Assembly: GCF_032118995.1 (NCBI RefSeq)
Contig: NC_092662.1
Location: 7,006,001-7,070,000, forward strand
DNA: 64,000 nt
Source: Asterias amurensis
Taxonomy: Eukaryota; Echinodermata; Asteroidea; Forcipulatida; Asteriidae
Direction of reading: 5' to 3'
The position numbers and the translations under genes are program-made. This document shows, piece by piece, positions 856 to 61,110 of the stretch. The notes under the pieces were generated by a model that saw nothing but the letters and a program-made list of their open reading frames with translations, had not been told where the DNA came from and searched no databases. Numbering within the stretch: position 1 is the stretch's first letter; every line of letters starts with the position of its first letter.

Positions 856-898
856 AGTAGTATGTGCGGCGTATATGACCCCGTTTTTGTGCGGTGGA

Positions 899-926
899 TC
901 ATGATCCACATGTCATGTGGATCATA
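899..926. repeat. Subterminal short palindromes
   Basis: Just inside the left terminus, GTGGATCATGATCCAC is followed at once by ATGATCCACATG-T-CATGTGGATCAT, two overlapping palindromes sharing a GATCCAC core. The mirror copy lies at about 6692-6721. Their position suggests subterminal protein-binding sites; this is inferred from symmetry only. Confidence 0.5.
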
Positions 927-2672
927 CATCAGCAAAGGGGGGGGGGGGGGTCGTCGGATGTGGGTGTCTGATGGGGTGTGACGAAGACCCCCCCCCCTCC
1001 TTTTTCTTTTTTTTTACCAAGACAGTAAGTGGGAAGGTCAAAGTGTAAGACTCAATAGTTAAGATGATACGCTGTTGAGTATTAGTCCAATTTTAAGATC
1101 AGGTAGGAATTTGATTTGTTTTTAAACATTTCTTTGAGTGTACGAGTCCGATAGTTCTGTTGTCGTCTGCTATGTTTTAATCGTGTTCGAACTTGCTCTC
1201 AGTTGCCGGACCGGACAACAAAGACAACCGAGCGGAAGGCCCAATTATATGTACGTAGGGTATGTTTCTGTGGACAAGTGCATTGCATTAATTCTATCCT
1301 TTGTTTCTAAAAAAGAAAAGAAGAAAAACAAATCTGTGGCACGCCACCACGAACCATTATTTGAGTATCAAATGTATACGTCGAATAATTGTTTTGTTTA
1401 CTCTTTGTATCGTTGCATCCGCAATTCGGCTTTTTGACAACCATGTTTGCATTTTTAATAAACCAATAATAATAATAATATTAATAATAATAATACACCC
1501 TTGTTTTTTTTTTTTTTTTTTTAAGGTTTAAATATTGTGTACATTACAGTAATAGTATCATAATCGAATATAATTAAATACTTTACTGGAAAATACGAAG
1601 AAAGGGTACCGATTTTACAAAAGCAATATAGCGTTGCAACCAAAGACTTACGATTATAAACAAGGTCGTGTTTTTTTTTGTTTTTTTGTTTGTTTGGTAT
1701 TACACATACAATGATTTAAACTTTTGACGACAACACCGGTGATCTACACTACTTTTAATAAATAAGAGCCCCAAAGTGTGGGTACAACCGAGTTAGCCAT
1801 CGGAAAAAAAAAAGATTAAATGTTTAGTTTGTTTGCATTTACACGCCCCCCCCCTTCTTTTTGGTAGGCCTAAGCAGTTTGCAATACAACAGATAATTTT
1901 CTATGCGTACGTTTCTGTACGGACTAATAAACTTACGGTGCATATCCAGGATATGTCTCTGCAAACGATCATATTATTTCCATCGTTCTCTAAAAAGATT
2001 AAACGTTAAATAGAGTTAAGGTGTCATAATAGAATCTAATAATTACTATCCTAATCTGTAATTGCCAGTGGCCTTCACTTCGTGTGCAAACATAAAGACC
2101 GGTGCATGGTTTACTTGAAAACCTCAATGACCCTTGATCACTGAGCCTTATCTGGTAGTTAATAGATGACGTCACAACTGATTGGTCTACCAGCCAAACG
2201 TGTCAGTTCTTGTTCCCCATACAGTGGAGCTATCTTTGTTTTCTATAACTCCAGCCCACATCATGTACCACAATCACTCGGACACGGTATTATGTTTGTG
2301 TTTACCTTTGCAAAAAGGGGCTGCAGAGAAAACGAGTATACACGGAAAAACAAGATATACGTTAACCAAAAACTTTATTCGGTATATAACACTCCATTAA
2401 CAATAACATCTACTTAAAACCTCCACAATACTTAAAACAATTATACATCACGAAGACCCCCCCCCCCCCCATTGTGACAAGAACTTTGAAATAAGTCGAT
2501 TGAACTGCGTTCGCATGCAGGTGAGGGCTGGACCCCAGCGACCCGTGCCTGCCTATTAAGGAGATAAGGTGGATGGGTTGAGATTGTTGGAAACTAGAGC
2601 AAAGAAATAATTGTTTTCTTGGTTTTGTTTTGTGTATATTTTGTATATTAATTTTTTTTTTTTACTCATCTT

Positions 2673-2676
2673 ATTA

Positions 2677-2745
<69 letters not shown>
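2673..2745. repeat. (TTA)n microsatellite, left arm
   Basis: About 24 TTA units downstream of the left zinc-finger gene. The right-arm equivalent (about 4908-4935) has only about 9 units, showing the arms have drifted in repeat length. Confidence 0.8.
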
Positions 2746-2747
<2 letters not shown>

Positions 2748-2908
2748 TCTTTTATTTTTATGTGTGGCGAGTTCACTTATTAAAACCCTCATAGTGTTTA
2801 CAGTTGATATATTATTATGCTTTAACAAATTTCCGTTGATAATACTGTTCTGTATTATTACCAAATCAAACAATACAATCTTGGGGTGTAGGATTGAAAA
2901 ACCTTTCA

Positions 2909-3658
2909 TCATTTAAACATAAGTTTAGCATTCTTTATCGAAAAATTCAGTATTTTCGTTGGACGTCTCCCGCTCTCTTCCTCTTCATTCTCATAAGCAC
3001 TTTCGTCTGTTGATAGATCGCTATCGTCTTCTTGAAATTCCTCCTCCTCCTCCTCCTCTTCATCTTCAAAATCGTCATCATCAGTTGATTCATCACTATC
3101 GTCTTCACAGAATCCCTCCTCCTCCTCCTCCACTTCTTCGCTTTCATAAGTCTTATCATGTGTCGATTCACCACTATCGTCTTCAAGGAACTCCTCCTCC
3201 TCCTCCTCATCTCCTTCATTTTCATGGCTATCATCATCTGTTAGTCCATCACTATCATCATCTTCACGGTAGTCCCCTTCCTTCATCACGTCTTCATTTT
3301 GAAAATCATCATCATCTGTCGATTCATCACTATCGTCTTCATGAAGCTCCTCCCATTCCACTTCCTCGTCTTTAAAATCCTCCCCTTCAGTGGATTCGCC
3401 ACTATCACCTTCGAGGAGGTCCTCCTCCTCCTCCTCCTCCTCCTTATGATTTTGAAGGTGTTTCTTCAAATTGTTTGAAGTGGAAAACACCTTATCACAA
3501 ATAGGACAAGCTTTCGATTGGATTCCGATACTGGGGTGCTTGTGTATCTGTCGGTGTCGTTTCATATTGTCGCTACGCGAAAAGCTCTTCCCACAAATCG
3601 GACACAAAACCTTTACCTGTACGGGTCTAAGCAAAGTGTTTAGACGCTTCGACTCCAT
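2909..3658 (-). CDS. Two-finger C2H2 protein with acidic repeat tail (left arm)
   Basis: A 249-aa protein. Two classical C2H2 fingers lie at about residues 19-39 (C19, C22, H35, H39) and 51-71 (C51, C54, H67, H71). They are followed by a glutamate run and about six degenerate repeats of an E-D-D-S-D-x-S-T unit separated by Glu/Asp runs, then a short basic tail rich in Lys/Arg. The start MESKRL is chosen because the open frame extends 18 codons further upstream here but the other arm has a 2-bp indel in that extension, so the first shared Met is at 3658. C2H2 fingers imply DNA binding and the acidic tail could serve activation or chromatin contact; neither is shown. The gene reads outward from the central loop. 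It differs from the right-arm copy by one Glu codon and, as far as I could see, one silent change. Confidence 0.75.
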   Translation of the reverse strand: MESKRLNTLLRPVQVKVLCPICGKSFSRSDNMKRHRQIHKHPSIGIQSKACPICDKVFSTSNNLKKHLQNHKEEEEEEEDLLEGDSGESTEGEDFKDEEVEWEELHEDDSDESTDDDDFQNEDVMKEGDYREDDDSDGLTDDDSHENEGDEEEEEEFLEDDSGESTHDKTYESEEVEEEEEGFCEDDSDESTDDDDFEDEEEEEEEEFQEDDSDLSTDESAYENEEEESGRRPTKILNFSIKNAKLMFK

Positions 3659-3802
3659 TTTTATATCAGTGAGACGATCCAAGACGAATGATATAGGCTT
3701 CAAAGTGTACACCGACCACCAGAAAACTTTAAATAAGTCGAACCTGTATGGGTCTTACAACTTAAGATTATAAGGTAGCATGGGGCTCAGGTCGTTGTCA
3801 AG

Positions 3803-3850
3803 TTCGTTTGACGATTGTTTCAATTGTGGACATCTGGTACAGTGAATCAG
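3803..3850. other. 48-bp loop of the giant palindrome
   Basis: The only sequence of the element not present twice. It starts after GTCGTTGTCAAG and ends before CTTGACAACGAC. The interval 3659-3993 between the two divergent zinc-finger starts must contain both promoters, and apart from the loop the two halves are mirror images, so a symmetric bidirectional promoter is expected. Confidence 0.7.
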
Positions 3851-3993
3851 CTTGACAACGACCTGGGCCCCATGTTACCTTTTAATCTAGGTTTGAAAGA
3901 CCCATACAGGTTCGACTTATTTAAAGTTTTCTGGTGGTCGGTGTACACTTTGAAGCCTATATCATTCGTCTTGGATCACTCACTGATATAAAA

Positions 3994-4746
3994 ATGGAGT
4001 CGAAGCGTCTAAACACTTTGCTTAGACCCGTACAGGTAAAGGTTTTGTGTCCGATTTGTGGGAAGAGCTTTTCGCGTAGCGACAATATGAAACGACACCG
4101 ACAGATACACAAGCACCCCAGTATCGGAATCCAATCGAAAGCTTGTCCTATTTGTGATAAGGTGTTTTCCACTTCAAACAATTTGAAGAAACACCTTCAA
4201 AATCATAAGGAGGAGGAGGAGGAGGAGGAGGAGGACCTCCTCGAAGGTGATAGTGGCGAATCCACTGAAGGGGAGGATTTTAAAGACGAGGAAGTGGAAT
4301 GGGAGGAGCTTCATGAAGACGATAGTGATGAATCGACAGATGATGATGATTTTCAAAATGAAGACGTGATGAAGGAAGGGGACTACCGTGAAGATGATGA
4401 TAGTGATGGACTAACAGATGATGATAGCCATGAAAATGAAGGAGATGAGGAGGAGGAGGAAGAGTTCCTTGAAGACGATAGTGGTGAATCGACACATGAT
4501 AAGACTTATGAAAGCGAAGAAGTGGAGGAGGAGGAGGAGGGATTCTGTGAAGACGATAGTGATGAATCAACTGATGATGACGATTTTGAAGATGAAGAGG
4601 AGGAGGAGGAGGAGGAATTTCAAGAAGACGATAGCGATCTATCAACAGACGAAAGTGCTTATGAGAATGAAGAGGAAGAGAGCGGGAGACGTCCAACGAA
4701 AATACTGAATTTTTCGATAAAGAATGCTAAACTTATGTTTAAATGA
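3994..4746 (+). CDS. Two-finger C2H2 protein with acidic repeat tail (right arm)
   Basis: A 250-aa mirror copy of the left-arm gene. Fingers have ligands C19/C22/H35/H39 and C51/C54/H67/H71, followed by an eight-Glu run (seven in the left copy), acidic repeats and a basic C-terminus. The ATG at 3994 is the first Met in the region whose frame is conserved between arms. Both copies remain fully open, which would be unlikely for long-neutral sequence but could also be maintained by gene conversion within the palindrome. I do not recognise a named family beyond C2H2 fingers. The simple acidic codons (GAG/GAA/GAT) make the reverse frame open too; that frame is a shadow. Confidence 0.75.
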   Translation: MESKRLNTLLRPVQVKVLCPICGKSFSRSDNMKRHRQIHKHPSIGIQSKACPICDKVFSTSNNLKKHLQNHKEEEEEEEEDLLEGDSGESTEGEDFKDEEVEWEELHEDDSDESTDDDDFQNEDVMKEGDYREDDDSDGLTDDDSHENEGDEEEEEEFLEDDSGESTHDKTYESEEVEEEEEGFCEDDSDESTDDDDFEDEEEEEEEEFQEDDSDLSTDESAYENEEEESGRRPTKILNFSIKNAKLMFK

Positions 4747-6762
4747 TGAAAGGTTTTTCAATCCTACACCCCAAGATTGTATTGTTTGATTTGGTAATAA
4801 TACAGAACAGTATTATCAACGGAAATTTGTTAAAGCATAATAATATATCAACTGTAAACACTATGAGGGTTTTAATAAGTGAACTCGCCACACATAAAAA
4901 TAAAAGAAATAATAATAATAATAATAATAATAACAATAATAAGATGAGTAAAAAAAAAAATTAATATACAAAATATACACAAAACAAAACCAAGAAAACA
5001 ATTATTTCTTTGCTCTAGTTTCCAACAATCTCAACCCATCCACCTTATCTCCTTAATAGGCAGGCACGGGTCGCTGGGGTCCAGCCCTCACCTGCATGCG
5101 AACGCAGTTCAATCGACTTATTTCAAAGTTCTTGTCACAATGGGGGGGGGGGGGGTCTTCGTGATGTATAATTGTTTTAAGTATTGTGGAGGTTTTAAGT
5201 AGATGTTATTGTTAATGGAGTGTTATATACCGAATAAAGTTTTTGGTTAACGTATATCTTGTTTTTCCGTGTATACTCGTTTTCTCTGCAGCCCCTTTTT
5301 GCAAAGGTAAACACAAACATAATACCGTGTCCGAGTGATTGTGGTACATGATGTGGGCTTGGAGTTATAGAAAACAAAGATAGCTCCACTGTATGGGGAA
5401 CAAGAACTGACACGTTTGGCTGGTAGACCAATCAGTTGTGACGTCATCTATTAACTACCAGATAAGGCTCAGTGATCAAGGGTCATTGAGGTTTTCAAGT
5501 AAACCATGCACCGGTCTTTATGTTTGCACACGAAGTGAAGGCCACTGGCAATTACAGATTAGGATAGTAATTATTAGATTCTATTATGACACCTTAACTC
5601 TATTTAACGTTTAATCTTTTTAGAGAACGATGGAAATAATATGATCGTTTGCAGAGACATATCCTGGATATGCACCGTAAGTTTATTAGTCCGTACAGAA
5701 ACGTACGCATAGAAAATTATCTGTTGTATTGCAAACTGCTTAGGCCTACCAAAAAGAAGGGGGGGGCGTGTAAATGCAAACAAACTAAACATTTAATCTT
5801 TTTTTTTTTCCGATGGCTAACTCGGTTGTACCCACACTTTGGGGCTCTTATTTATTAAAAGTAGTGTAGATCACCGGTGTTGTCGTCAAAAGTTTAAATC
5901 ATTGTATGTGTAATACCAAACAAACAAAAAAACAAAAAAAAACACGACCTTGTTTATAATCGTAAGTCTTTGGTTGCAACGCTATATTGCTTTTGTAAAA
6001 TCGGTACCCTTTCTTCGTATTTTCCAGTAAAGTATTTAATTATATTCGATTATGATACTATTACTGTAATGTACACAATATTTAAACCTTAAAAAAAAAA
6101 AAACCAAAAACAAGGGTGTATTATTATTATTAATATTATTATTATTATTGGTTTATTAAAAATGCAAACATGGTTGTCAAAAAGCCGAATTGCGGATGCA
6201 ACGATACAAAGAGTAAACAAAACAATTATTCGACGTATACATTTGATACTCAAATAATGGTTCGTGGTGGCGTGCCACAGATTTGTTTTTCTTCTTTTCT
6301 TTTTTAGAAACAAAGGATAGAATTAATGCAATGCACTTGTCCACAGAAACATACCCTACGTACATATAATTGGGCCTTCCGCTCGGTTGTCTTTGTTGTC
6401 CGGTCCGGCAACTGAGAGCAAGTTCGAACACGATTAAAACATAGCAGACGACAACAGAACTATCGGACTCGTACACTCAAAGAAATGTTTAAAAACAAAT
6501 CAAATTCCTACCTGATCTTAAAATTGGACTAATACTCAACAGCGTATCATCTTAACTATTGAGTCTTACACTTTGACCTTCCCACTTACTGTCTTGGTAA
6601 AAAAAAAAAAGGAGGGGGGGGGGGGGGTCTTCGTCACACCCCATCAGACACCCACATCCGACGACCCCCCCCCCCCCCCCCTTTGCTGATGTATGATCCA
6701 CATGACATGTGGATCATGATCCACCGCACAAAAACGGGGTCATATACGCCGCACATACTACT

Positions 6763-6768
6763 AGTAAC
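6763..6768 (+). repeat. Right target site duplication of giant palindromic element
   Basis: AGTAAC directly after the right terminus (…GCACATACTACT), identical to 850-855. Confidence 0.85.
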
Positions 6769-14449: not shown

Positions 14450-14615
14450 TGTGATAACCTGTAGTTGATTATTGTGTTAGCGCCCTCTATTGACTGGTTG
14501 TAGAAAAGGTGTTTTGTAGTTGTGTTGGCATCCATCTTGTTGTTTATTAAAGTCATGTACACATGGTTTCGTTAACCTAATCCAGTGAGTTAAGTCAGTA
14601 ATTGAAGTTACTACA
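14450..14615 (+). repeat. 5' LTR (166 bp)
   Basis: Begins TGTGATAACCTG and ends GAAGTTACTACA. By eye identical to 18931-19096. Contains GTTTATTAAAGTC, a possible poly(A)/TATA-like region. Confidence 0.9.
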
Positions 14616-14618
14616 TTT

Positions 14619-14636
14619 TGGCGACGAGGATGGGAT
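14619..14636 (+). promoter_or_regulatory. Primer-binding site, probably tRNA-Ser
   Basis: TGGCGACGAGGATGGGAT starts 3 nt after the LTR. It closely resembles the complement of a eukaryotic tRNA-Ser(GCU) 3' end (CCA added), as I recall that tRNA; one mismatch within the first 18 nt. Confidence 0.65.
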
Positions 14637-14674
14637 CCTGCTAAACAGGGAGAACATCCAGAAGAAATCTCAGT

Positions 14675-17600
14675 ATGAATACCTTTGGGAATATCGGTGA
14701 ATTTCAAGATGAAAAGGACAGTGAAGCATGGCCTCTGTATGTGGAACGATTGAAGCAGTTTTTTGAAGCAAACGATGTAGAGGATGCTGGTAAGCAGATA
14801 GCTATTTTGTTAAGTGTTTGTGGTGCTGACACATATAAGTTGATATCAAGCCTTGTAGCACCAGCAAAACCAGGAGAAAAGACTTTTGATGAACTGATAT
14901 CGATTGCTAAGGATCATTTCAACCCACTACCCTCGGTAATCGTTCAGCGATATAAGTTTAACACACGCATTCAGCAACAAGGAGAGACAACTGCAGAATT
15001 TGTTGCTGAATTACGCCGTCTCGCACGACACTGTGAGTATGGGTCTACACTAGAGGATATGTTGCGTGATCGCTTAGTATGTGGCTTAAAGGATGAGCGA
15101 GTGCAACGAAGGCTGTTATCAGAGCCCTCCCTTAAATTCAAGAAAGCGTGGGAAATTTCACAAGCCATGGAGCTAGCCATGAAGAATGCCAAAGACCTTC
15201 AAAGAAACCTCGAGTCTTTGCCCGTACCAGTGGCCGCTGGACCCCTGCAGCAAGCCAATAAAGTTGCTAGTAGTACCAGCGCCAGGGGGCCTAACCAAAC
15301 AAGGCCATATCCACAACAAGCACAGCCCCACAAACAAGGTACACACTTCACTAAATGTTATCGATGTGGACGCACGGATCACTCTGCAAATGATTGCAGA
15401 GTACGTTCGTATATTTGTCATAACTGTGGAAAACAGGGACATCTAGCCAAAGTTTGTCGGGGTGGTAAATCGTCTTCCACCCCAGTAGAGTCAAAAGTCC
15501 ACAAGGATAAAGCGTACTGCATGGAACCTGACTTCGAAAACCCTGTGAATGCAGAAGCTAACTATACAATGTATAAAACCTCGGCACAAAACAAAGAGCC
15601 ACCGCTTATCGCAAATGTACTGATAAACAAATGTAAGGTCTCAATGGAAATTGACACTGGTGCTTCTGTCTCCATCATGAGTGAGACCACTTATGATTCC
15701 ATATTTAAGCACAAGAAACCTTCTCTTCGTACCGGGGAACACGTCGAGTTACGAACTTATACAGGCCAGAAAATACCTGTGGTTGGTACGTGTTCAGTCA
15801 CAGTAGAACACAACGATCAGAAGACTCAACTCTCACTTCTCATTGTGTCGGGTCAAGGACCAAATCTTCTCGGACGAGATTGGCTGCGCCATCTTAAGTT
15901 AGCGTGGCAAGAAATTCACCATGTCAGGCACACTGATTCGACTGCTGAGATTATGAATCATTATGAAGAGTTATTTCGGGATGACTTGGGTAAACTAAAA
16001 GGACAACCTGTGAAAATAAATATCAAAACAGATGCAAAGCCCAAGTTCTGTAAGGCGAGAACCGTGCCCTTCTCCATGAAAAAACAAGTGGAAGATGAAC
16101 TCGATAGACTCCAAAAGAGTGGTGTCATTGAACCAGTAACATTCTCGCGTTGGGCAGCACCCATTGTTCCAGTGATTAAAGAAAATGGGCAAATCAGAAT
16201 CTGTGGAGATTACAAGGCCACAGTAAATCAGGATGCTAATGTTGACTCATACCCCCTTCCTCGAGTGGAGGAATTGTTCGCTGCAATGTCTGGTGGTCAG
16301 ACATTTAGCAAGCTCGATCTCAGTCATGCTTACTTGCAACTTGTGCTCGATGAACCATCGCGTGAACTTGCGACAATTAACACTCACCGTGGACTGTTCC
16401 AGTATACGAGAATGCCTTTTGGAATTTCAGCTGCACCCGCCATTTTCCAACGGACCATTGAAAGTTTGTTAGCTGACATTCCCCAAGCAGTGGCATTTCT
16501 CGATGATATCCTTGTTACAGGTAAATCTGAATCAGAGCACATTGCTAATCTTGATCGAGTACTTACCAGACTACAAAGTGCAGGCCTCCGACTGAAACAG
16601 GAGAAATGTAAGTTCTTCGCACCAGAGGTAGTTTACCTCGGACATCGCATAAATGCAACAGGCTTGCATCCCACAACGGAGAAGGTGCAAGCGATAAAGG
16701 ATGCGCCAGTCCCCCGTAATGTAACTGAGTTAAAATCCTACCTGGGTATTCTCAACTACTACGCAAAGTTTTTGCCCAACTTGTCGTCGCTCATAGCCCC
16801 TTTGCACTGTTTGTTGAGGAAGGACACCCGCTGGTCATGGGACACAGCCCAGGATAAAGCCTTCCGTGAATCTAAGGAATTGTTAGTTTCAGCTCAAGTT
16901 CTGGTGCATTACAACCCAGAGAAGGAGTTAGTGCTATCATGTGATGCTAGTCCATATGGTGTGGGCGCAGTGCTGGCCAACCGAATGTCCGATGGAACAG
17001 AACATCCAATTGCGTACGCATCACGTTCCCTGTCTCCACCAGAGCGTAATTATTCGCAACTAGACAAGGAAGGATTAGCAATGGTCTTTGGAGTAAAAAA
17101 GTTCCATCAGTATGTGTACGGTAGGAAGTTTGAGATATCTACTGATCATAAGCCGTTGCTCGGTTTATTAGGTGAAGGGCGAATGATACCCCCCATGGCA
17201 TCATCCAGAATTCAGCGGTGGGCACTTACACTTTCCGCTTATGATTACCAGTTGGTCTACAAACCAGGGTCATTAAATGGTAATGCCGATGCACTGAGCA
17301 GATTACCATTACCCCATACACCTTCGCATGTACCAGTTCCAGCGGATTATGTCATGGTCATGGATCACATGGAGTCAACACCAGTCAGCCCAGAGAAAAT
17401 TCGCCTTTGGACAGGCCGAGACCCGGTACTGTCACAGGTGCGATCATTTGTGATGAATGGTTGGCCAGCAGAATGTGCAAATTCAGCATTGCAGCCATAC
17501 ATCTGTCGTAAAACAGAATTAAGCATCCAAGACGGCTGCATAATGTGGGGGTCACGTGTTGTCATCCCCCCACAGGGTCGCCAGCGTCTTGTGGAGGAGT

Positions 17601-18709
17601 TACATGAATCGCACCCTGGAGTGTCACGCATGAAATCGTTGGGTCGCAGTTATGTATGGTGGCCCTGCATGGACAAAGACATTGAGAGTAAAGTCAAACA
17701 GTGTTCGCCATGCCAAACCTCACGTCAATCGCCACCAGTTGCACCACTGCACCCATGGGAGTGGCCCCAGCGTCCATGGTCACGCCTTCACGTGGATTAT
17801 GCAGGTCCGTTTATGGGACGAATGTTTCTCATAATTGTTGATGCACATAGCAAATGGCTAGATATACATGCTATGCATAGTGCAACGTCACTGGCTACAG
17901 TAGAGAAGCTGCGTCAGACCTTCGCGACACATGGATTGCCAGATATTATTGTTTCCGATAATGGCAGTAATTTCACCAGTGCAGAGTTTCAGGAATTCTT
18001 GAGAAGGAATGGCATTAAACATGTCCGGTCCGCGCCATTCCACCCATCATCCAACGGGTTGGCTGAGCGTGCAGTTCAGTCTTTTAAGGCCGCGATGAGA
18101 CGTATGAATGAGGGTACTGTTGAGACAAAGTTGTCACGATTCTTGTTCACATATCGCACCACGCCACACGCCACGACAGGAATTTCCCCAGCTCAATTGT
18201 TGATGAATCGTCGACCGCAGACAAGACTTGATTTGGTCCGTCCGGATCTTCGACGTCGAGTAACCAACAAGCAATGTGCACAGAAGGAACATCATGATAA
18301 ACACGCAAAACCTCGCTCGTTTAATGTGAACGACACCGTTTATGTGCATAATTATGCGCCTGGCCCTAGATGGATGGCAGGGCGTGTAGTATCATTGTGT
18401 GGCCATCTTATGTACACAGTCCTACTTGAGGATGGTCGTGTGTGGAGACGCCATGTTGATCAAATGCGTTTCCGAGATGTGTCAACCACACCCAGTTTGG
18501 AGCCAAATTGGCCCATTCCTTCATCGGAGAGGGAGGAAATGGTTGGTGAACAACCACTTGTACAGATTGACAGTACACCATCAGTGGAAGAGCCAAGTCC
18601 AATGCCAGCAGAGCAGACAGGCTCACAGAACACAGAACCAGACATTGAACTTCGCAGATCCACACGCGTTCGCACCAAACCTGAACTCTATGGATTTCCA
18701 GATCTGTGA
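14675..18709 (+). CDS. Gag-Pol polyprotein of Ty3/gypsy retrotransposon
   Basis: 1344 aa in a single frame. Gag-like N-terminus to about residue 200; two CCHC zinc knuckles at about 229-262 (CYRCGRTDHSANDC, CHNCGKQGHLAKVC); aspartic protease MEIDTGASVS at about 324-333; reverse transcriptase about 460-640 with FSKLDLSHAYLQ and the catalytic FLDDILV near 607; RNase H from about 752 (LSCDASPYGVGAVL); integrase HHCC zinc-binding region about 975-1015 and the DDE core (D near 1039 in HVDYAGPF, D near 1094 in VSDNGSNF, E near 1130 in NGLAERAVQ). No frameshift between Gag and Pol, unlike many retroelements, so the polyprotein is likely processed after translation as one unit. All catalytic residues that I checked are present. 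The start at 14675 is the first ATG after the PBS, 60 nt downstream of the LTR. Confidence 0.95.
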   Translation: MNTFGNIGEFQDEKDSEAWPLYVERLKQFFEANDVEDAGKQIAILLSVCGADTYKLISSLVAPAKPGEKTFDELISIAKDHFNPLPSVIVQRYKFNTRIQQQGETTAEFVAELRRLARHCEYGSTLEDMLRDRLVCGLKDERVQRRLLSEPSLKFKKAWEISQAMELAMKNAKDLQRNLESLPVPVAAGPLQQANKVASSTSARGPNQTRPYPQQAQPHKQGTHFTKCYRCGRTDHSANDCRVRSYICHNCGKQGHLAKVCRGGKSSSTPVESKVHKDKAYCMEPDFENPVNAEANYTMYKTSAQNKEPPLIANVLINKCKVSMEIDTGASVSIMSETTYDSIFKHKKPSLRTGEHVELRTYTGQKIPVVGTCSVTVEHNDQKTQLSLLIVSGQGPNLLGRDWLRHLKLAWQEIHHVRHTDSTAEIMNHYEELFRDDLGKLKGQPVKINIKTDAKPKFCKARTVPFSMKKQVEDELDRLQKSGVIEPVTFSRWAAPIVPVIKENGQIRICGDYKATVNQDANVDSYPLPRVEELFAAMSGGQTFSKLDLSHAYLQLVLDEPSRELATINTHRGLFQYTRMPFGISAAPAIFQRTIESLLADIPQAVAFLDDILVTGKSESEHIANLDRVLTRLQSAGLRLKQEKCKFFAPEVVYLGHRINATGLHPTTEKVQAIKDAPVPRNVTELKSYLGILNYYAKFLPNLSSLIAPLHCLLRKDTRWSWDTAQDKAFRESKELLVSAQVLVHYNPEKELVLSCDASPYGVGAVLANRMSDGTEHPIAYASRSLSPPERNYSQLDKEGLAMVFGVKKFHQYVYGRKFEISTDHKPLLGLLGEGRMIPPMASSRIQRWALTLSAYDYQLVYKPGSLNGNADALSRLPLPHTPSHVPVPADYVMVMDHMESTPVSPEKIRLWTGRDPVLSQVRSFVMNGWPAECANSALQPYICRKTELSIQDGCIMWGSRVVIPPQGRQRLVEELHESHPGVSRMKSLGRSYVWWPCMDKDIESKVKQCSPCQTSRQSPPVAPLHPWEWPQRPWSRLHVDYAGPFMGRMFLIIVDAHSKWLDIHAMHSATSLATVEKLRQTFATHGLPDIIVSDNGSNFTSAEFQEFLRRNGIKHVRSAPFHPSSNGLAERAVQSFKAAMRRMNEGTVETKLSRFLFTYRTTPHATTGISPAQLLMNRRPQTRLDLVRPDLRRRVTNKQCAQKEHHDKHAKPRSFNVNDTVYVHNYAPGPRWMAGRVVSLCGHLMYTVLLEDGRVWRRHVDQMRFRDVSTTPSLEPNWPIPSSEREEMVGEQPLVQIDSTPSVEEPSPMPAEQTGSQNTEPDIELRRSTRVRTKPELYGFPDL

Positions 18710-18916
18710 CTCTAAAAAACACAGTTCTTCTTTTGTTACCATGGAAACAGTTGTTGATTAATAATAGTTCCTCATGTAACAATGGAACCAGCCAATAGGT
18801 TAATGTATGTTTTCCTACAGACCCGTAGGTGTTGGTTCTGAAACTAATTCTCTTGGATTTAATGTTCTAGTGTTCAAGTTGTTGTTTCCTTAAAGTTGTT
18901 GTGTTAAGTATTATCT

Positions 18917-18929
18917 AAAGGAGGAGGAG
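18917..18929 (+). promoter_or_regulatory. Polypurine tract
   Basis: AAAGGAGGAGGAG lies one base before the 3' LTR, the expected site of plus-strand priming. Confidence 0.8.
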
Positions 18930-18930
18930 T

Positions 18931-19096
18931 TGTGATAACCTGTAGTTGATTATTGTGTTAGCGCCCTCTATTGACTGGTTGTAGAAAAGGTGTTTTGTAG
19001 TTGTGTTGGCATCCATCTTGTTGTTTATTAAAGTCATGTACACATGGTTTCGTTAACCTAATCCAGTGAGTTAAGTCAGTAATTGAAGTTACTACA
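18931..19096 (+). repeat. 3' LTR (166 bp)
   Basis: Same sequence as 14450-14615; followed by the CACTA target duplication at 19097-19101. Confidence 0.9.
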
Positions 19097-32915: not shown

Positions 32916-32983
32916 GTATATATATTTTCTTATGCCCTGTAATTTTAAACGCAATTGCCAAGTTTGATTGTTTTTTCAAAACC

Positions 32984-33363
<380 letters not shown>

Positions 33364-33860
33364 GAAAACTTGTTTTCCCCCGATTTCTTGAATCTGAGAA
33401 TCGTTACCGCGCAAAACATTTCTCAGTTTGTGTTTTCCGTAACATGGATATTCTTCCTGCGTCGACATTAGTCGCTCCGGTTTTTATCTCAAAAACGTGA
33501 TATTGAAATTTTCCTGTTTTTTCCACTTTTTTTTAATGCAAGTCGACAGACACACAAGGCCTGAAGGCCACTTCAAGGTGTGGGCTACAAACTATTTTTT
33601 TCAAGGGGCCGTTGCCACCTACTCCTAGGGCTGGAACAGGGTTGCCCCTTTACAGTCCATACGGATTTAGGCTTGGGTATCATCAGTCCGAAACCTGGCC
33701 GGTAGAGCAGAAAGCACTACATCTCCAATTGTTAGTTTTATTGTGTACATCAACACTTACATTGCATCGTATTAAAACAATCGAGAGGTTCCAAAAAAAC
33801 AAATGTATACTTGGCCTGTAAGTCAATAATGAAACTCATTTGTTTCGTTCTTAGAAAGCA

Positions 33861-34339
33861 TATTTTACTCAGATTATTATTTTGTTTTTGTTTTTTGTTT
33901 TACAAGTGTTCAGTTAGCTGAATTTATTTTAAACTGTGCACTTAAAGACACTGGACATTATTGGTAATTGTCATAGGCCAGTCTTCTCATTTAGTGTATT
34001 TCAACATATGCATACATCAACAAACCTGTGAAAATTTGAGCTAATGAAATTATGCTAATAATTATTTTGAGTAATTACCAATAGTTTCCACTGCCTAAAA
34101 ACAATAATTAATTAGATTAAATCAGACCGTAGAGTTGCGTATCACGGAAAACAATAAAGAAATTATTTGCTTATACATGTCATACAAACAATCAAATCAA
34201 TGTAGACATACGGGAAGGAAGCCGACCGTCTATAAAAGAACAGTCAATTAAATGCAACGATGACATCTTAAATATGAAAGAATCTCTCGTATTGCGTTTT
34301 AATGCTCCAATACCACAGCAATACACAATGCACGACACA
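33861..34339. repeat. Segmental duplication, copy 1, left part
   Basis: Matches 41489-42064. A TTAAAGACACTGG-family MITE inside (33945-34099) has lost about 140 bp relative to the other copy. A conserved open stretch (about 34185-34345) corresponds to the frame at 41893-42135. Interrupted at 34340 by the next element; continues at 35749-35917. Confidence 0.75.
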
Positions 34340-37935: not shown

Positions 37936-38440
37936 GTCTGTACGTGTTGTTTCGCAAATTATAGGCACTATAAAAATATAAAAATCCTTCACACAAATAT
38001 TCCGAAATGTGGGTGAGGGTGTTATACGCCTCTCTCAATATTTATGCATGGTGTCATAATTCTAACCCAAAATGAAGCTATTTCGCACGTCCACCACTAC
38101 TTGCAGTGGCTGTACCCACCTCGTTTTGGGTTAGACGACGTACCTTATGCATCTAGAAACTATAAGGCTCCCCCGTGATCCTTATAGGGGTCTAATATGT
38201 TGGGCCTCCCTAACGTTACACGTTTTTCAAATCAGCGTTGATAGGTGAAACTGACCGTTAGCCAGCAATAACTAAAGTTTCTTTTGTACTACACTACCAA
38301 AACTTTCTCCACACACTCAATATACATTCATAATGCTTGCATTTCCTTTTTAAAAAACATCGTCAAAAATGACATTTTTACATCCCACGATACATAGCGT
38401 TGCTACAGCACTCTAAATAAAGCGAGTTTTTGGAACATGC
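37936..38440 (+). repeat. ~0.5-kb segment inverted relative to 42226-42720
   Basis: From CGTGTTGTTTCGCAAATTAT to AAATAAAGCGAGTTTTTGG. The same sequence occurs inverted at 42226-42720, while the adjoining GCTGTGTGCCACAAA flank is in the same orientation at both places. No coding potential. Confidence 0.8.
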
Positions 38441-41488: not shown

Positions 41489-42223
41489 TCAGATTATTAT
41501 TTTGTTTTTTGTTTTACAAGTGTTCAGTTAGCTGAGTTTATTTTAAACTGTGCACTTAAAGACACTGGACATTACTGGTAATTGTCAAAGGCCAGTCTGC
41601 TCATTTAGTGTATTTCAACATATGCAAACATCAACAAACCTGTGAAAATTTGAGCTCAATGGTCGTCGAAGTTGCGAGATAATAATGAAAGAAAAACACC
41701 CTTGTCACACGAAGTTGTGTGCTTTCTGCTTGATTTTGAGACCTCGAACTCTAGTTATGAGGTCTCGAAATGAAATTATGCTAAGAATTATTTTGAGTAA
41801 TTACCAATAGTTTCCACTGCCTAAAAACAATAATTAATTAGATTAAATCAGACTGTAGAGTTGCGTATCACGGAAAACAATAAAGAAATTATTTGCTTAT
41901 ACATGTACATACAAACAATCAAATCAATGTAGACATACGGGAAGGAAGCCGACCGTCTATAAAAGAACAGTCAATTAAATGCAACGATGACATCTCAAAT
42001 ATGAAAGAATCTCTCGTATTGCGTTTTAATGCTCCAATACCGCAGCAATACACAATGCACGACACAGAAGTACAGTCACTTAACTTAAGTTCAAGGCTAC
42101 AAAAGGCAGCACAACAAGAGGCTGGTTACACGTGAAATAAACACAAAAAATAGCTGAGGGAAACAATAAGGGAATCAATGTGCGGTGAAGAGGTGTTCAA
42201 GGAGGAACAACCTGAAAGGAAGT
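41489..42223. repeat. Segmental duplication, copy 2 (empty-site copy)
   Basis: Continuous counterpart of 33861-34339 plus 35749-35917. Includes TTAAAGACACTGG-family MITE copy 5 (41555-41824) and the uninterrupted site CGACACAGAAG. Confidence 0.8.
41893..42135 (+). other. Conserved open frame in duplicated segment, function unknown
   Basis: An open stretch of up to 80 codons containing INVDIREGSRPSIKEQS and ends LQKAAQQEAGYT-TGA, followed by AATAAA. The paralogous copy (34190-34345 plus 35749-35820) keeps the same frame with few substitutions, but is cut by a transposon. There is no good start context and no recognised domain; it could be a terminal exon of a dead gene. Confidence 0.3.
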
Positions 42224-42225
42224 TT

Positions 42226-42720
42226 GGTTCAAAAACTCGCTTTATTTAGAGTGCTGTAGCAACGCTATGTATCGTGGGATGTAAAAATGTCATTTTTGAC
42301 GATGTTTTTTAAAAAGGAAATGCAAGCATTATGAATGTATATTGAGTGTGTGGAGAAAGTTTTGGTAGTGTAGTACAAAAGAAACTTTAGTTATTGCTGG
42401 CTAACGGTCAGTTTCACCTATCAACGCTGATTTGAAAAACGTGTAACGTTAGGGAGGCCCAACATATTAGACCCCTATAAGGATCACAGGGGAGCCTTAT
42501 AGTTTCTAGATGCATAAGGTACGTCGTCTAACCCAAGACGAGGTGGGTACAGCCACTGCAAGTAGTGGTGGACGTGCGAAATAGCTTCATTTTGGGTTAG
42601 AATTATGACACCATGCATAAATATTGAGAGAGGCGTATAACACCCTCACCCACATTTCGGAATATTTGTGTAAAGGATTTTTATATTTTTATAGTGCCTA
42701 TAATTTGCGAAACAACACGT
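42226..42720 (-). repeat. Inverted counterpart of 37936-38440
   Basis: Reverse-complement match over nearly the full 0.5 kb, e.g. CTCGCTTTATTTAGAGTGCT at the left and ATAATTTGCGAAACAACACG at the right. Confidence 0.8.
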
Positions 42721-57530: not shown

Positions 57531-60165
57531 TAGTCTTGGTTCAAAGACCATTGGTGTTGCGCGGTCACACACAACCAACGTTCTATGCACGGCAAAAACT
57601 GTACACGCTTGTAATGAACGAACGCTAGCGGGCGCTCTGTTTCTCTGATTTAGATCTCCACCATGTCTTGGACATTTGTAAATTGAAGGCGTGGCCAGAT
57701 TATGTAAATGACTTTTAATGTATGCAATATTCATATCACGTGACGAATTGAAGATGACCATTCAAACTAGATCAAGTCAAAGGTCAATATGATCGGCGCT
57801 CTATAAGCTTTGCTCAAAGTGATTCCGTGGTCATTAGGCCTATTAAAGGAAAACAGTGAAATTTCAAGTATAGACTACCTATTCAGGTTATGGATACATG
57901 ACGATTTGAAATCGTAATTAATGGTCAAAAAATCGAACGTAAGATTAGCATTCAGAGAGTCCGTGTAACGGACGCTTGTATGGCCCCACGGCGTGGAGCA
58001 ATCGGAACGTAAAGCCTTGGGGAATATCACGTATCGTCCATGCCGTGTCTCGTGGGGGTTGGAGGTGTAATCCCGGGCGCTATGAACTCCCAGCTTGCGG
58101 GTACGTCTCGCCGTGAGCTTGGGAGGGGTTGGAAGCCAAACATAAAAGTACATGTTTGTCATCGTGGGTTTGTCAGTCGGGTCGTGTCGAATCCGTTGTT
58201 TCTTATGATCGCAACGTTCCAATATGCTCCATTTTGTTTCAGGCCCCCTAATTTCTTTTTTGTTATGAGTTTTCAGGTAATTTTGATGATGTCAAAACGT
58301 AGGAATACCGCATTTTGTTATATTGACAGTGTTATTGTGTGAGTAGCTTAAAATGATGAGATTTTTTTATAAAAGGTTGAAATAAAAATAATGATAAAAC
58401 AAAATTCCCTCAAAGCATAATTTTGTCAAACAAAGTATTATTTTTTAATTCTGTGAATGAAGAGTTATTTTTGAGGTTGGTTAAATTGGGCAACTAGTGG
58501 AATTTATGACCCGACTATATCAAATAACTGCGACTTCGATACAAGTCGCGAATACTCCCGTTGCCCCAGATGCATCGTGACATGTTATTGTTTGCCGAAG
58601 GCACAATAAAGTAAAACTCGTGCTGAAATGATTGAAAGATTGTGTCACTGACGTCTGGTTGTGTTTTGGTGAAAAGTTTTTGTGATTAGTCATGAGCGAC
58701 AAAAGTGGTTATACCAAGCAGGAATTTGATCACAACTACTTTTATAGTACGTAGTCTTAGCCGCACGATTAACCAAGTGAGTTGAATAGCAGTAGTCGCC
58801 ACTCAACAAGCAATCAAAATTCGCAATTTCTCATGAGTTGTTTCAAAAGATATGGTTACGACTACATCCCAAAAGATATTATATGGTTACGTTCAAAGTT
58901 ACTCGGCTACGGATCTGTTCCAAGATATGCTTAGGTCTACGGTCCTTCAAGTTACACTATAATATCAAAAGGTACGTTTTCAAGCCCGAGTCAAGCTACG
59001 CTTATGTTCCAAGATACGCAGCTACGTTTACGTTCCAAGATGCTACGCTTACGTTCCAAGATATATGCTTACGTTCCAAAAGATATGTCAACGTTCCAAG
59101 CTACGCAGCTACTCAGCTCTGCTTACATTCCAAGATCTGCTTACGTTCCTTGAAGTTATGCTATAATATCAAAAGGTGCGCTTTCAATCCCATGTCAAGT
59201 TACGCTTACGTTCCAAGATACGCAGCTACAATTACGTTCCAAGATACGCTTAGGTCTACGTTCCTTCAAGATCAAAAGGTACGCTTTCATGTCAAGTTAC
59301 GCTTACGTTCCAAGATCTGCAGCTACGCTTACGTTTCAAAATACGTTCTCACAAGGACGCTTTTGAATCCCTCAAGATTTCCGTCCCCCAAGATTAAAAA
59401 ACTTTCACTGTGAATAACACAGGGCCCACCAGTTATCTGTTTGGCAGAAAATACTGTACAAAATTTCTTTACTATCCAAAAATTTAGTTGGGCACAAGCC
59501 ACAAGTCTACAACATTTCAAATTTAATTAAAAATTAGCTGGTATAACCAGTTTCTGCTAAGCAATACTATTTTGTGCTAAGCAATACTATTTTGTGCTAA
59601 GCAAATTGTTGTGCCAATACAGGCTTCATGAAATTGGGCCCTGGCACGTCGGGAGCATAACGTCACGATCGCATTTCAAACTGCATCATGGCAATGCAGT
59701 ATCTGGATTTGGATATTATACATAGAAAGGTTTGTGGTGTTACCGCAAACCTTTCTTCATCGTATTTCCACCATGCAAAGTTTCAAATCCTACTGATCTG
59801 GATATCATTATAGTCCGATAAAAACGTATACCCACACACACATGCAGAGTATAGCAAAAGTCATGCAACGCACTTACTGCATGCATTGTACACTGCATGC
59901 ACAACACTGATTAATATTCATGAGCCAACCGCAACGCAGCCTCTGAATGGCTCCACCGGAAAGTCGGGGGAGATTTGCCGAAAAACAATAAAAAAGTTAA
60001 GACCCGTCGTTGCAAATTTCCAAGACCTTGGTGAGATCTAAATCAGAGAAACAGAGCGCCCGCTAGCGTTCGTTCATTACAAGAGTGTACAGTTTTTGCC
60101 GTGCATAGATCGGAACGTTGGTTGTGTGTGACCGCGCAACACCAATGGTCTTGGAACCAAGACTA
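57531..60165. mobile_element. Non-autonomous TIR element B, 9-bp TSD (same family as element A)
   Basis: 2635 bp; TIR and internal organisation as in 38491-41016, with the tandem TTACGTTCCAAGAT array at about 58880-59340. Flanked by GTCATGATC at 57522-57530 and 60166-60174. Relative to element A it has about 245 extra bp at 58531-58776 and a shorter internal array. It interrupts a LINE, which confirms the borders. Confidence 0.8.
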
Positions 60166-61110
60166 GTCATGATCCAACTTTCCAAGCGGTGTTCTGCTGT
60201 ACGGTTTATAAGCATCGGGTATGTTCCCATAACATTTGTCAAGGGTTCGATGTCTCCTAGTAAGAATATTGACATACTGGTGGTAGTGAGGCATCACATG
60301 CTTTAAATCACATTTGTTAAAGTCACCCATAATGAGTTTGACAGCATCTGGGGATTTCTTTTCCAGTTCTTGAACATGTTGAGCAAGGATAGAAGATGCA
60401 GTAGCACTGTCTGCTTTTGGCTGGATATATACAACGGTGACAAATATCTTGGGAAACTGTCTCGGAAGGTAGAATGGTATAAGTCCCACAGTAATATACT
60501 CAACATCGGGTGAACAATGGCTTTGTTTGACACAAATGTTGTTGCACCATCTTTGATTAATGTAAATACACACACCTCCGCCCGATAACTTTCCTGATTC
60601 AGGGGACCTATCCATACGTTTAAAGATGAAGCCATCTATATTTTGTGTTTGCAGTTAATCAATTTTGTTGCAAAGGGATCGTGCATTACCTGTAATGATT
60701 GTTGGCAGTGCTGGGTTGAATCTTCGACGCCGAAGACGGGTTCGGATTCCACCTTTCCTACCCCGTTTGCGTTTTCGTAAGTTCTCGGGAATGTCTTTGC
60801 TGGGCAAGACAATGCTTGCCGAAGATCCGCGAAGATTTAACAGTTCGTTGCGTCCATATACAATGCGTTCTTGTAATGGCCACCCACTTGCAATATTTCC
60901 GTCAGATAGTGTAGCACAAATGTGTCCAATACTGCTCAACAGATATATCAAAACGACGAAAAACCACACCATCACACATCTGGTGCCATCATGTAGACTA
61001 GTATGACAAAATTAAGACGATAAACTAGGACGGATACGGTAAAACATGACGAATTTTACAAACATTGAACGAGAGCTGTACAAAAAGGTGGTCGCCGCGG
61101 TGTAGTGCCC
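60166..61110 (-). pseudogene. LINE (CR1/RTE-like) 5' end and endonuclease fragment
   Basis: On the minus strand, 60975-60656 encodes the N-terminal leader with a basic RKRKRGRKGGIRTRLRRRR segment and ends …NARSLCNKID-stop. 60615-60166 encodes part of the apurinic-type endonuclease: GGGVCIYIN, PDVEYITVGLIPFYLPR, and LIMGDFN with its catalytic GDFN motif, reaching GKLDHD at the insertion site. About 100-150 bp that should lie between the two parts are missing and a stop is present, so the element is dead. The copy extends 5' to about 61110. Confidence 0.8.

Follow-up and report, generated by a model that had tools for sequence, protein, structure and literature searches.

The window analysed here, a stretch of 64,000 nucleotides from the genome of Asterias amurensis (contig NC_092662.1, positions 7,006,001 to 7,070,000), contains near its left end, at positions 856–6762, an almost perfect palindrome with a C2H2 finger gene in each arm, which is probably a transposon with Polinton/Maverick-type ends. 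The palindrome was confirmed by global alignment of the left arm (856–3802) with the reverse complement of the right arm (3851–6762), which gave 2890 identical columns, 7 mismatches, and 13 gaps. The gaps are mostly length changes in simple repeats, the largest of them (42 bp) in a TTA repeat, and four of the seven mismatches lie at 15–45 bp from the loop, with a fifth at 127 bp. An inverted repeat of 2.9 kb is not attributable to chance. Arm alignment and open reading frames bear out what an earlier reading of this DNA (the original prediction) had described, i.e., arms of about 2.95 kb, a 48-bp loop, AGTAAC on both sides, and two intact copies of a C2H2/acidic gene. The element runs from AGTAGTATG to CATACTACT and has the following parts:

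850–855, no strand: target duplication AGTAAC, left copy, 6 bp
856–861, + strand: terminal (AGT)2, which fits the Maverick motif 5′-(AGT)2//(ACT)2-3′ (available text of PMC8097293)
856–1904, + strand: outer arm, 74–76% homologous to the terminal inverted repeats of polymerase element L010/L011
856–3802, + strand: palindrome left arm, 2947 bp (arm alignment)
864–894, + strand: direct repeat GTGCGG near the terminus, copies at 864–869 and 889–894 (end alignment; repeat read by eye)
2909–3658, − strand: finger/acidic gene, left copy, 249 aa
3757–3787, + strand: loop-proximal left stem with inherited arm-specific differences, 15–45 bp from the loop
3803–3850, no strand: loop, 48 bp
3851–6762, − strand: palindrome right arm, 2912 bp (arm alignment)
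3866–3896, − strand: loop-proximal right stem, pairs with 3757–3787
3994–4746, + strand: finger/acidic gene, right copy, 250 aa
6757–6762, + strand: terminal (ACT)2
6763–6768, no strand: target duplication AGTAAC, right copy, 6 bp

Both gene copies are intact, divergent, and read outward from the loop; in the encoded protein, a pair of C2H2 fingers (Pfam zf-C2H2, E = 1.3e-14 and 1.7e-14) is combined with a long, repetitive acidic tail. A six-frame scan of the left arm and loop detected no Pfam domain besides the fingers, and hence no polymerase, integrase, ATPase, protease, capsid, or transposase domain. The finger domain is 41% identical over 61 aa to the N terminus of a polymerase encoded by larger elements with the same ends, described below, and these polymerase elements were among the better genome matches outside the finger family, fingers being common generally. 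The protein, which resembles the N-terminal fingers of the polymerase, probably binds DNA of the element. Candidate recognition sites are the GTGCGG direct repeats: within the terminal 40 bp (856–895) this hexamer is doubled, and both copies vary jointly among subfamilies (GTGCGG, GAGAGG, TAAGG). Among public proteins, the close matches listed were two, 84–85% identical over 18–43% of the query and located on contigs of 784 and 921 bp, which may be transcripts of a relative.

The palindrome family and its ends

Searches of the assembly (491.5 Mb, 23 contigs) placed the outer 245 bp of the arm at no fewer than 44 sites (40 of 59 candidates scored) and returned at least 153 matches to the finger protein (150 of 1098 candidates scored), although ordinary C2H2 genes account for many of the weaker matches. 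We examined 28 stretches, which had been picked because they looked paired or complete and from which no frequency can be derived. Together with the window, they provide nine full or nearly full palindromes (the window, L009, L018, L019, L020, L037, L038, L039, and L040). As a chromosomal duplication seems to have produced L038 and L040 from one insertion, the set represents at least eight independent insertions including the one in the window. Each of the seven further insertions has its own 6-bp duplication. Gene regions of different palindromes are 72–99.6% similar, compared with 96–99% between the two arms of one element.

Several members deviate from the simple form. The palindrome of L018 is disturbed, and L020 (383–6258) is a composite in which a truncated extra arm is joined to a complete palindrome, all inside one AGGATA duplication, which may reflect a template jump back to a terminus. 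L021 and L022 have a single gene and unequal halves; in L022, one arm and the loop are followed by about 35 bp of the opposite stem and then by an outward jump, and the break falls within the cluster of mismatches near the loop. A 1.5-kb inverted repeat in L041 is cut by the end of the stretch, L025–L028 and L042 are partial, and L023/L024 contain scattered pieces only.

The flanks of L038 and L040 on contig C10 consist of TTAGGG-like repeats, and three copies of a finger-gene pair, spaced by about 55 and 59 kb, are located there. The termini of L037, L038, L039, and L040 are modules unlike those of the window element, while their inner arm is still 71–93% alike; each of these four has an identical terminal module at both ends, as if ends had been swapped and then copied to the opposite side.

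The loop lies at a homologous position in all palindromes compared; a 44-bp core of the window loop has the same orientation in L009, L019, and L020 and the opposite one in L037. Because the loop is at the same place and the asymmetry next to it is shared even by L039, which is about 26% diverged, the palindrome has a single, old origin and was passed on in palindromic form from then on. The original prediction had suggested that it could be a snap-back derivative and that other snap-back copies with different loop points should be looked for. A fresh derivative is not supported, and independent recent snap-backs at different points are rejected on the same grounds.

Both ends were available for 15 elements, which correspond to 14 insertions (L038 and L040 being copies of one) and include four polymerase elements of 10.8–13.3 kb. 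All 15 start with AGTAGT and finish with ACTACT, the ends of L039 being placed at the AGTAGT motif, 5 bp inside its inverted repeat. The 6-bp target duplication is exact in 14 of them and off by one base in L038. Vertebrate Mavericks have the end motif (AGT)2//(ACT)2 together with 6-bp duplications, according to the available text of PMC8097293. Polintons/Mavericks are recognized by (AG)3 or (AGT)2 ends, with the complement at the 3′ end, and by a 6-bp target-site duplication; such ends are present in all 15 elements and an exact duplication in 14, as the original prediction had surmised.

Elements carrying a polymerase

Four longer elements, L010/11, L012/13, L014/15, and L016/17, combine the same ends with finger and polymerase frames; we refer to them as partners. 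Their frames join C2H2 fingers, a conserved Cys/His region, exonuclease and polymerase motifs, and a Vsr-like nuclease (the motif names are our own assignment). The conserved Cys/His residues in the N-terminal part (C208 and H322 in A1) belong to a region that could be OTU-like; for the Polinton polymerase, the published order is terminal protein, OTU, exonuclease, and polymerase (available text of PMC11071308). L016/17 has this frame uninterrupted for 1590 aa, and the A. amurensis genome contains three long frames (1572, 1590, and 1658 aa) that match the polymerase well. We assign it to family B with an embedded Vsr-like nuclease because 22 of 30 homologues match DNA_pol_B_2 (best E 3.4e-17) and a profile of the nuclease matches Vsr structures (E 1.2e-4). 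At E 1e-10 the polymerase has 1637 related proteins, and the best 120 of these include proteins from Patiria, Branchiostoma, Holothuria, Amphiura, corals, and gastropods. A pattern search for viral relatives in IMG/VR gave 384 matches, none of which was confirmed.

Two of the four partners were scanned for integrase, ATPase, capsid, and transposase domains. No retroviral-type integrase was found in the six frames of the window arm, in L010/L011 outside the polymerase (from 1400 and 2990 on), or in the corresponding parts of L016/L017; as a control, the same procedure recovered rve at 7.6e-14 in the Gypsy element of the window. Packaging ATPase, protease, and capsid were likewise absent from these scans, for the capsid with the limit that Pfam may lack a suitable model, and two weak matches below cut-off, DDHD and RDM3_C, are unrelated. 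The Pox_A32 ATPase had no match in the genome (4 candidates scored), a model that is maybe too distant. Since no integrase, ATPase, or capsid domain was detected in the scanned parts while the control worked, we read the partners as apparent Polinton relatives with the polymerase only, on which the palindromes seem to ride. The longer element with the same terminus that the original prediction had called for thus exists and encodes a family-B DNA polymerase; its expected integrase, ATPase, and capsid did not appear in the two partners scanned. Nor did these contain a transposase domain, i.e., the non-Polinton transposase that the prediction had named as speaking against it.

Over the first 60 bp, the ends of L020 are identical to those of L012/13 and the ends of L019 to those of L014–17. 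The notion of one recent snap-back of the end of a polymerase element is not supported, as the arm shares only its outer ~1 kb with these elements. Overall, the family resembles Polintons/Mavericks in its (AGT)2//(ACT)2 ends, 6-bp duplications, terminal inverted repeats, and the family-B polymerase of the partners. It differs in that genes for polymerase, integrase, ATPase, and capsid are absent from the palindrome, that the partners measure 10.8–13.3 kb compared with 15–25 kb for Polintons (available text of PMC6431247), and that the partner polymerase includes fingers and a Vsr-like nuclease, with no integrase or capsid in the two partners scanned. Among the titles and abstract openings listed in the literature searches, which covered neither Repbase nor subscription papers, none describes Polinton-type elements that are palindromic or elements that join a polymerase to Vsr.

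Concerted change of the arms

To compare elements, we called a site concerted if both arms agree within each element and the elements differ, and arm-specific if left arms agree with each other, right arms agree with each other, and left differs from right, the loop serving to orient the arms. At distances of more than 60 bp from the loop within the gene region, all 35 pairs from the nine palindromes (the pair L038/L040 left out) had no arm-specific and no crossed site, and between 1 and 228 concerted ones. The last 2 kb of the arm gave the same result in 20 of 20 pairs from seven elements, with 4–179 concerted sites and no arm-specific site beyond 130 bp. Adjoining the loop, 2–8 arm-specific sites were found per pair, including pairs with L039, which is about 74% alike to the window element, and an asymmetric core at 31–45 bp from the loop is present in all nine palindromes. 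Judged from these alignments, the sequence outside the near-loop stem is rewritten repeatedly. In a tree, the two arms are sisters in the window element, L018, L020, L037, and L039.

L038 and L040, the copies duplicated after insertion, behave in the opposite way: beyond 60 bp from the loop, their gene region has 19 arm-specific and no concerted sites, and left groups with left and right with right (100/97). Because in this one case the arms were not equalised in the chromosome, it is likely in the mobile phase that rewriting takes place.

The terminal repeats of the partners follow a similar pattern. All six pairs had 2–168 concerted and no side-specific or crossed sites in the outer 1 kb, and side-specific sites occurred from about 1.2 kb inward. 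The palindrome may be seen as a limiting case, in which the terminal repeat is extended to the loop.

The remainder of the window contains other repeats. A Ty3/Gypsy retrotransposon (14450–19096) is bounded by 166-bp direct repeats (14450–14615 and 18931–19096, 100% identical) and has an open frame of 1354 aa with gag, protease, reverse transcriptase, RNase H, and integrase domains. A long TTA/AAT microsatellite, open in more than one frame, extends over 32945–33400; the TTA array in the palindrome arms differs by 42 bp. Another inverted repeat (37942–38437 and 42225–42720) has 496-nt arms that are 99% complementary and 3.8 kb apart, with 99% direct repeats nearby (34043–34339 and 41769–42066). 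Finally, a frame at 60163–60654 resembles part of a LINE endonuclease (read by eye).

Proposed copying through a hairpin and its rivals

Taken together, we consider it probable that the palindrome is a non-autonomous, heritable transposon with Polinton/Maverick-type ends, palindromic by descent, in which one arm serves, by way of a hairpin, as the template for the other. More tentatively, it could be a heritable hairpin replicon, that is, a fully palindromic lineage living on polymerase-only Polinton relatives, in which self-primed hairpin copying at each move rewrites one arm from the other. The element would be replicated extrachromosomally as linear DNA by the polymerase of the partners, probably in a protein-primed manner that leaves a displaced single strand. 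By folding at the loop, this palindromic strand would form a hairpin; in the simplest case, a 3′ end located shortly beyond the loop would snap back, prime on the loop-proximal stem, and copy outward to the terminus. One arm would thereby be resynthesised from the other, so that an origin is present at both ends, damage in either arm is erased, and each arm keeps a copy of the gene; integration would then create the 6-bp duplication. Such a process predicts equal arms, a spared stem near the loop with inherited asymmetry, and misprimed products, with which L022 agrees since its break sits among the mismatches next to the loop. That recurrent snap-back copying maintains the identity of the arms has support but no proof. 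Adenovirus uses a trinucleotide repeat for jumping back, and the terminal AGTAGT repeat resembles it.

Other replicons offer partial parallels. Defective copy-back genomes of adenovirus and of linear protein-primed plasmids also have one end inversely duplicated and panhandle repair of terminal repeats; these are by-products of replication, whereas the members of the family described here have diverged by about 26% while still inheriting the structure. Rolling-hairpin replicons such as adeno-associated virus share the hairpin intermediate that is postulated here; their hairpins are at the termini only, whereas the palindrome forms a stem over its entire length and has relatives with a family-B polymerase.

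The finger gene seems to be maintained, which we count in favor of the transposon reading: compared with the L039 subfamily its dN/dS is 0.35–0.38 (dS about 0.6), an estimate that leans partly on a low-complexity stretch, and within the close group it is 0.22–0.73 with few changes. Other results weigh against the reading favored here. No integrase was found, which leaves integration unexplained. Three of the four partner frames are interrupted, and the partners' own pieces match DNA_pol_B_2 (E 6e-4) and Vsr (0.013) below the curated cut-offs. Over 420 bp, the ends of L020 and L019 are only 83–84% alike to those of their polymerase partners, and the ends of the window element 77–88% alike to the four; no polymerase element with the terminal variant of the window element was found, and the inner ~1.9 kb of the arm is without DNA match in the partners, the shared part being the outer ~1 kb. 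The mobile-phase argument relies on one duplicated insertion, and the tree, in which little signal is left, does not join the two arms of L009 or those of L019 as sisters. For the partners, another alignment gave 1 side-specific site in the outer 250 bp (L010/11 vs L012/13), and 15 were counted for L014/15 vs L016/17 in the 800–1000 bin, which takes 528 columns including an insertion. Furthermore, both L019 and L020 have a concerted change at 22–24 bp from the loop, which shows that sparing of this zone is not absolute and that it is not strictly a primer.

This last change also bears on the main rival, which we regard as rather unlikely: the mobile form would be a full-length single-strand hairpin, and mismatch correction by the host, not snap-back synthesis, would equalise the arms. 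It gives nearly the same pattern, with differences past the stem erased and the mismatch cluster at 31–45 bp persisting in all nine palindromes, and the concerted change at 22–24 bp indicates that equalisation is possible inside the stem. Single mismatches at 15 and 24 bp, however, survive in several elements, the break of L022 in the mismatch cluster resembles misplaced synthesis, and the correction would need to leave no mismatch over 2.9 kb.

Chromosomal gene conversion between the arms, as in the palindromes of sex chromosomes, is improbable. Palindromic arms are known substrates of conversion, and the 96–99% similarity of arms within elements would suit it, but L038/L040, a single insertion duplicated after it had integrated, shows 19 arm-specific sites against 0 concerted ones and groups by arm.

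We give still less weight to an ordinary cut-and-paste foldback transposon (Galileo/P or MULE) with very long terminal repeats. The Galileo/Foldback elements of Drosophila share very long terminal repeats and structural variability with the palindromes; in Galileo, the terminal inverted repeats are extended in various ways, and the duplications are mostly of 7 bp, with a P-type transposase (available text of PMC4168063). The 7–9-bp duplications and P- or MULE-type transposase of such elements were not seen here: the duplications are of 6 bp in 14 of 15 elements, scans of the window arm in six frames and of two partners detected no transposase domain, the ends have the Maverick motif, and relatives with the same ends carry a DNA polymerase. 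Least credible of all is an assembly artefact from fold-back chimeric reads, which do exist, in view of eight independent insertions with their own flanks, matching 6-bp duplications, a homologous loop place, and inherited near-loop asymmetry.

To our knowledge, replication of Polinton type in animals has been inferred mainly from gene content. The transposon reading favored here would add a footprint of replication in the sequence itself, consisting of terminal repeats and whole palindrome arms that are equalised between insertions, with a boundary near the loop, and a hairpin or panhandle step becomes testable in a living animal. It suggests that a complete palindrome can be a stable, inherited form of genome organisation and not an accident, and it adds a layer of parasites atop apparent polymerase-only relatives of Polintons. 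If the palindrome is indeed a hairpin replicon, the element would proofread itself and would always possess two identical genes and two identical origins.

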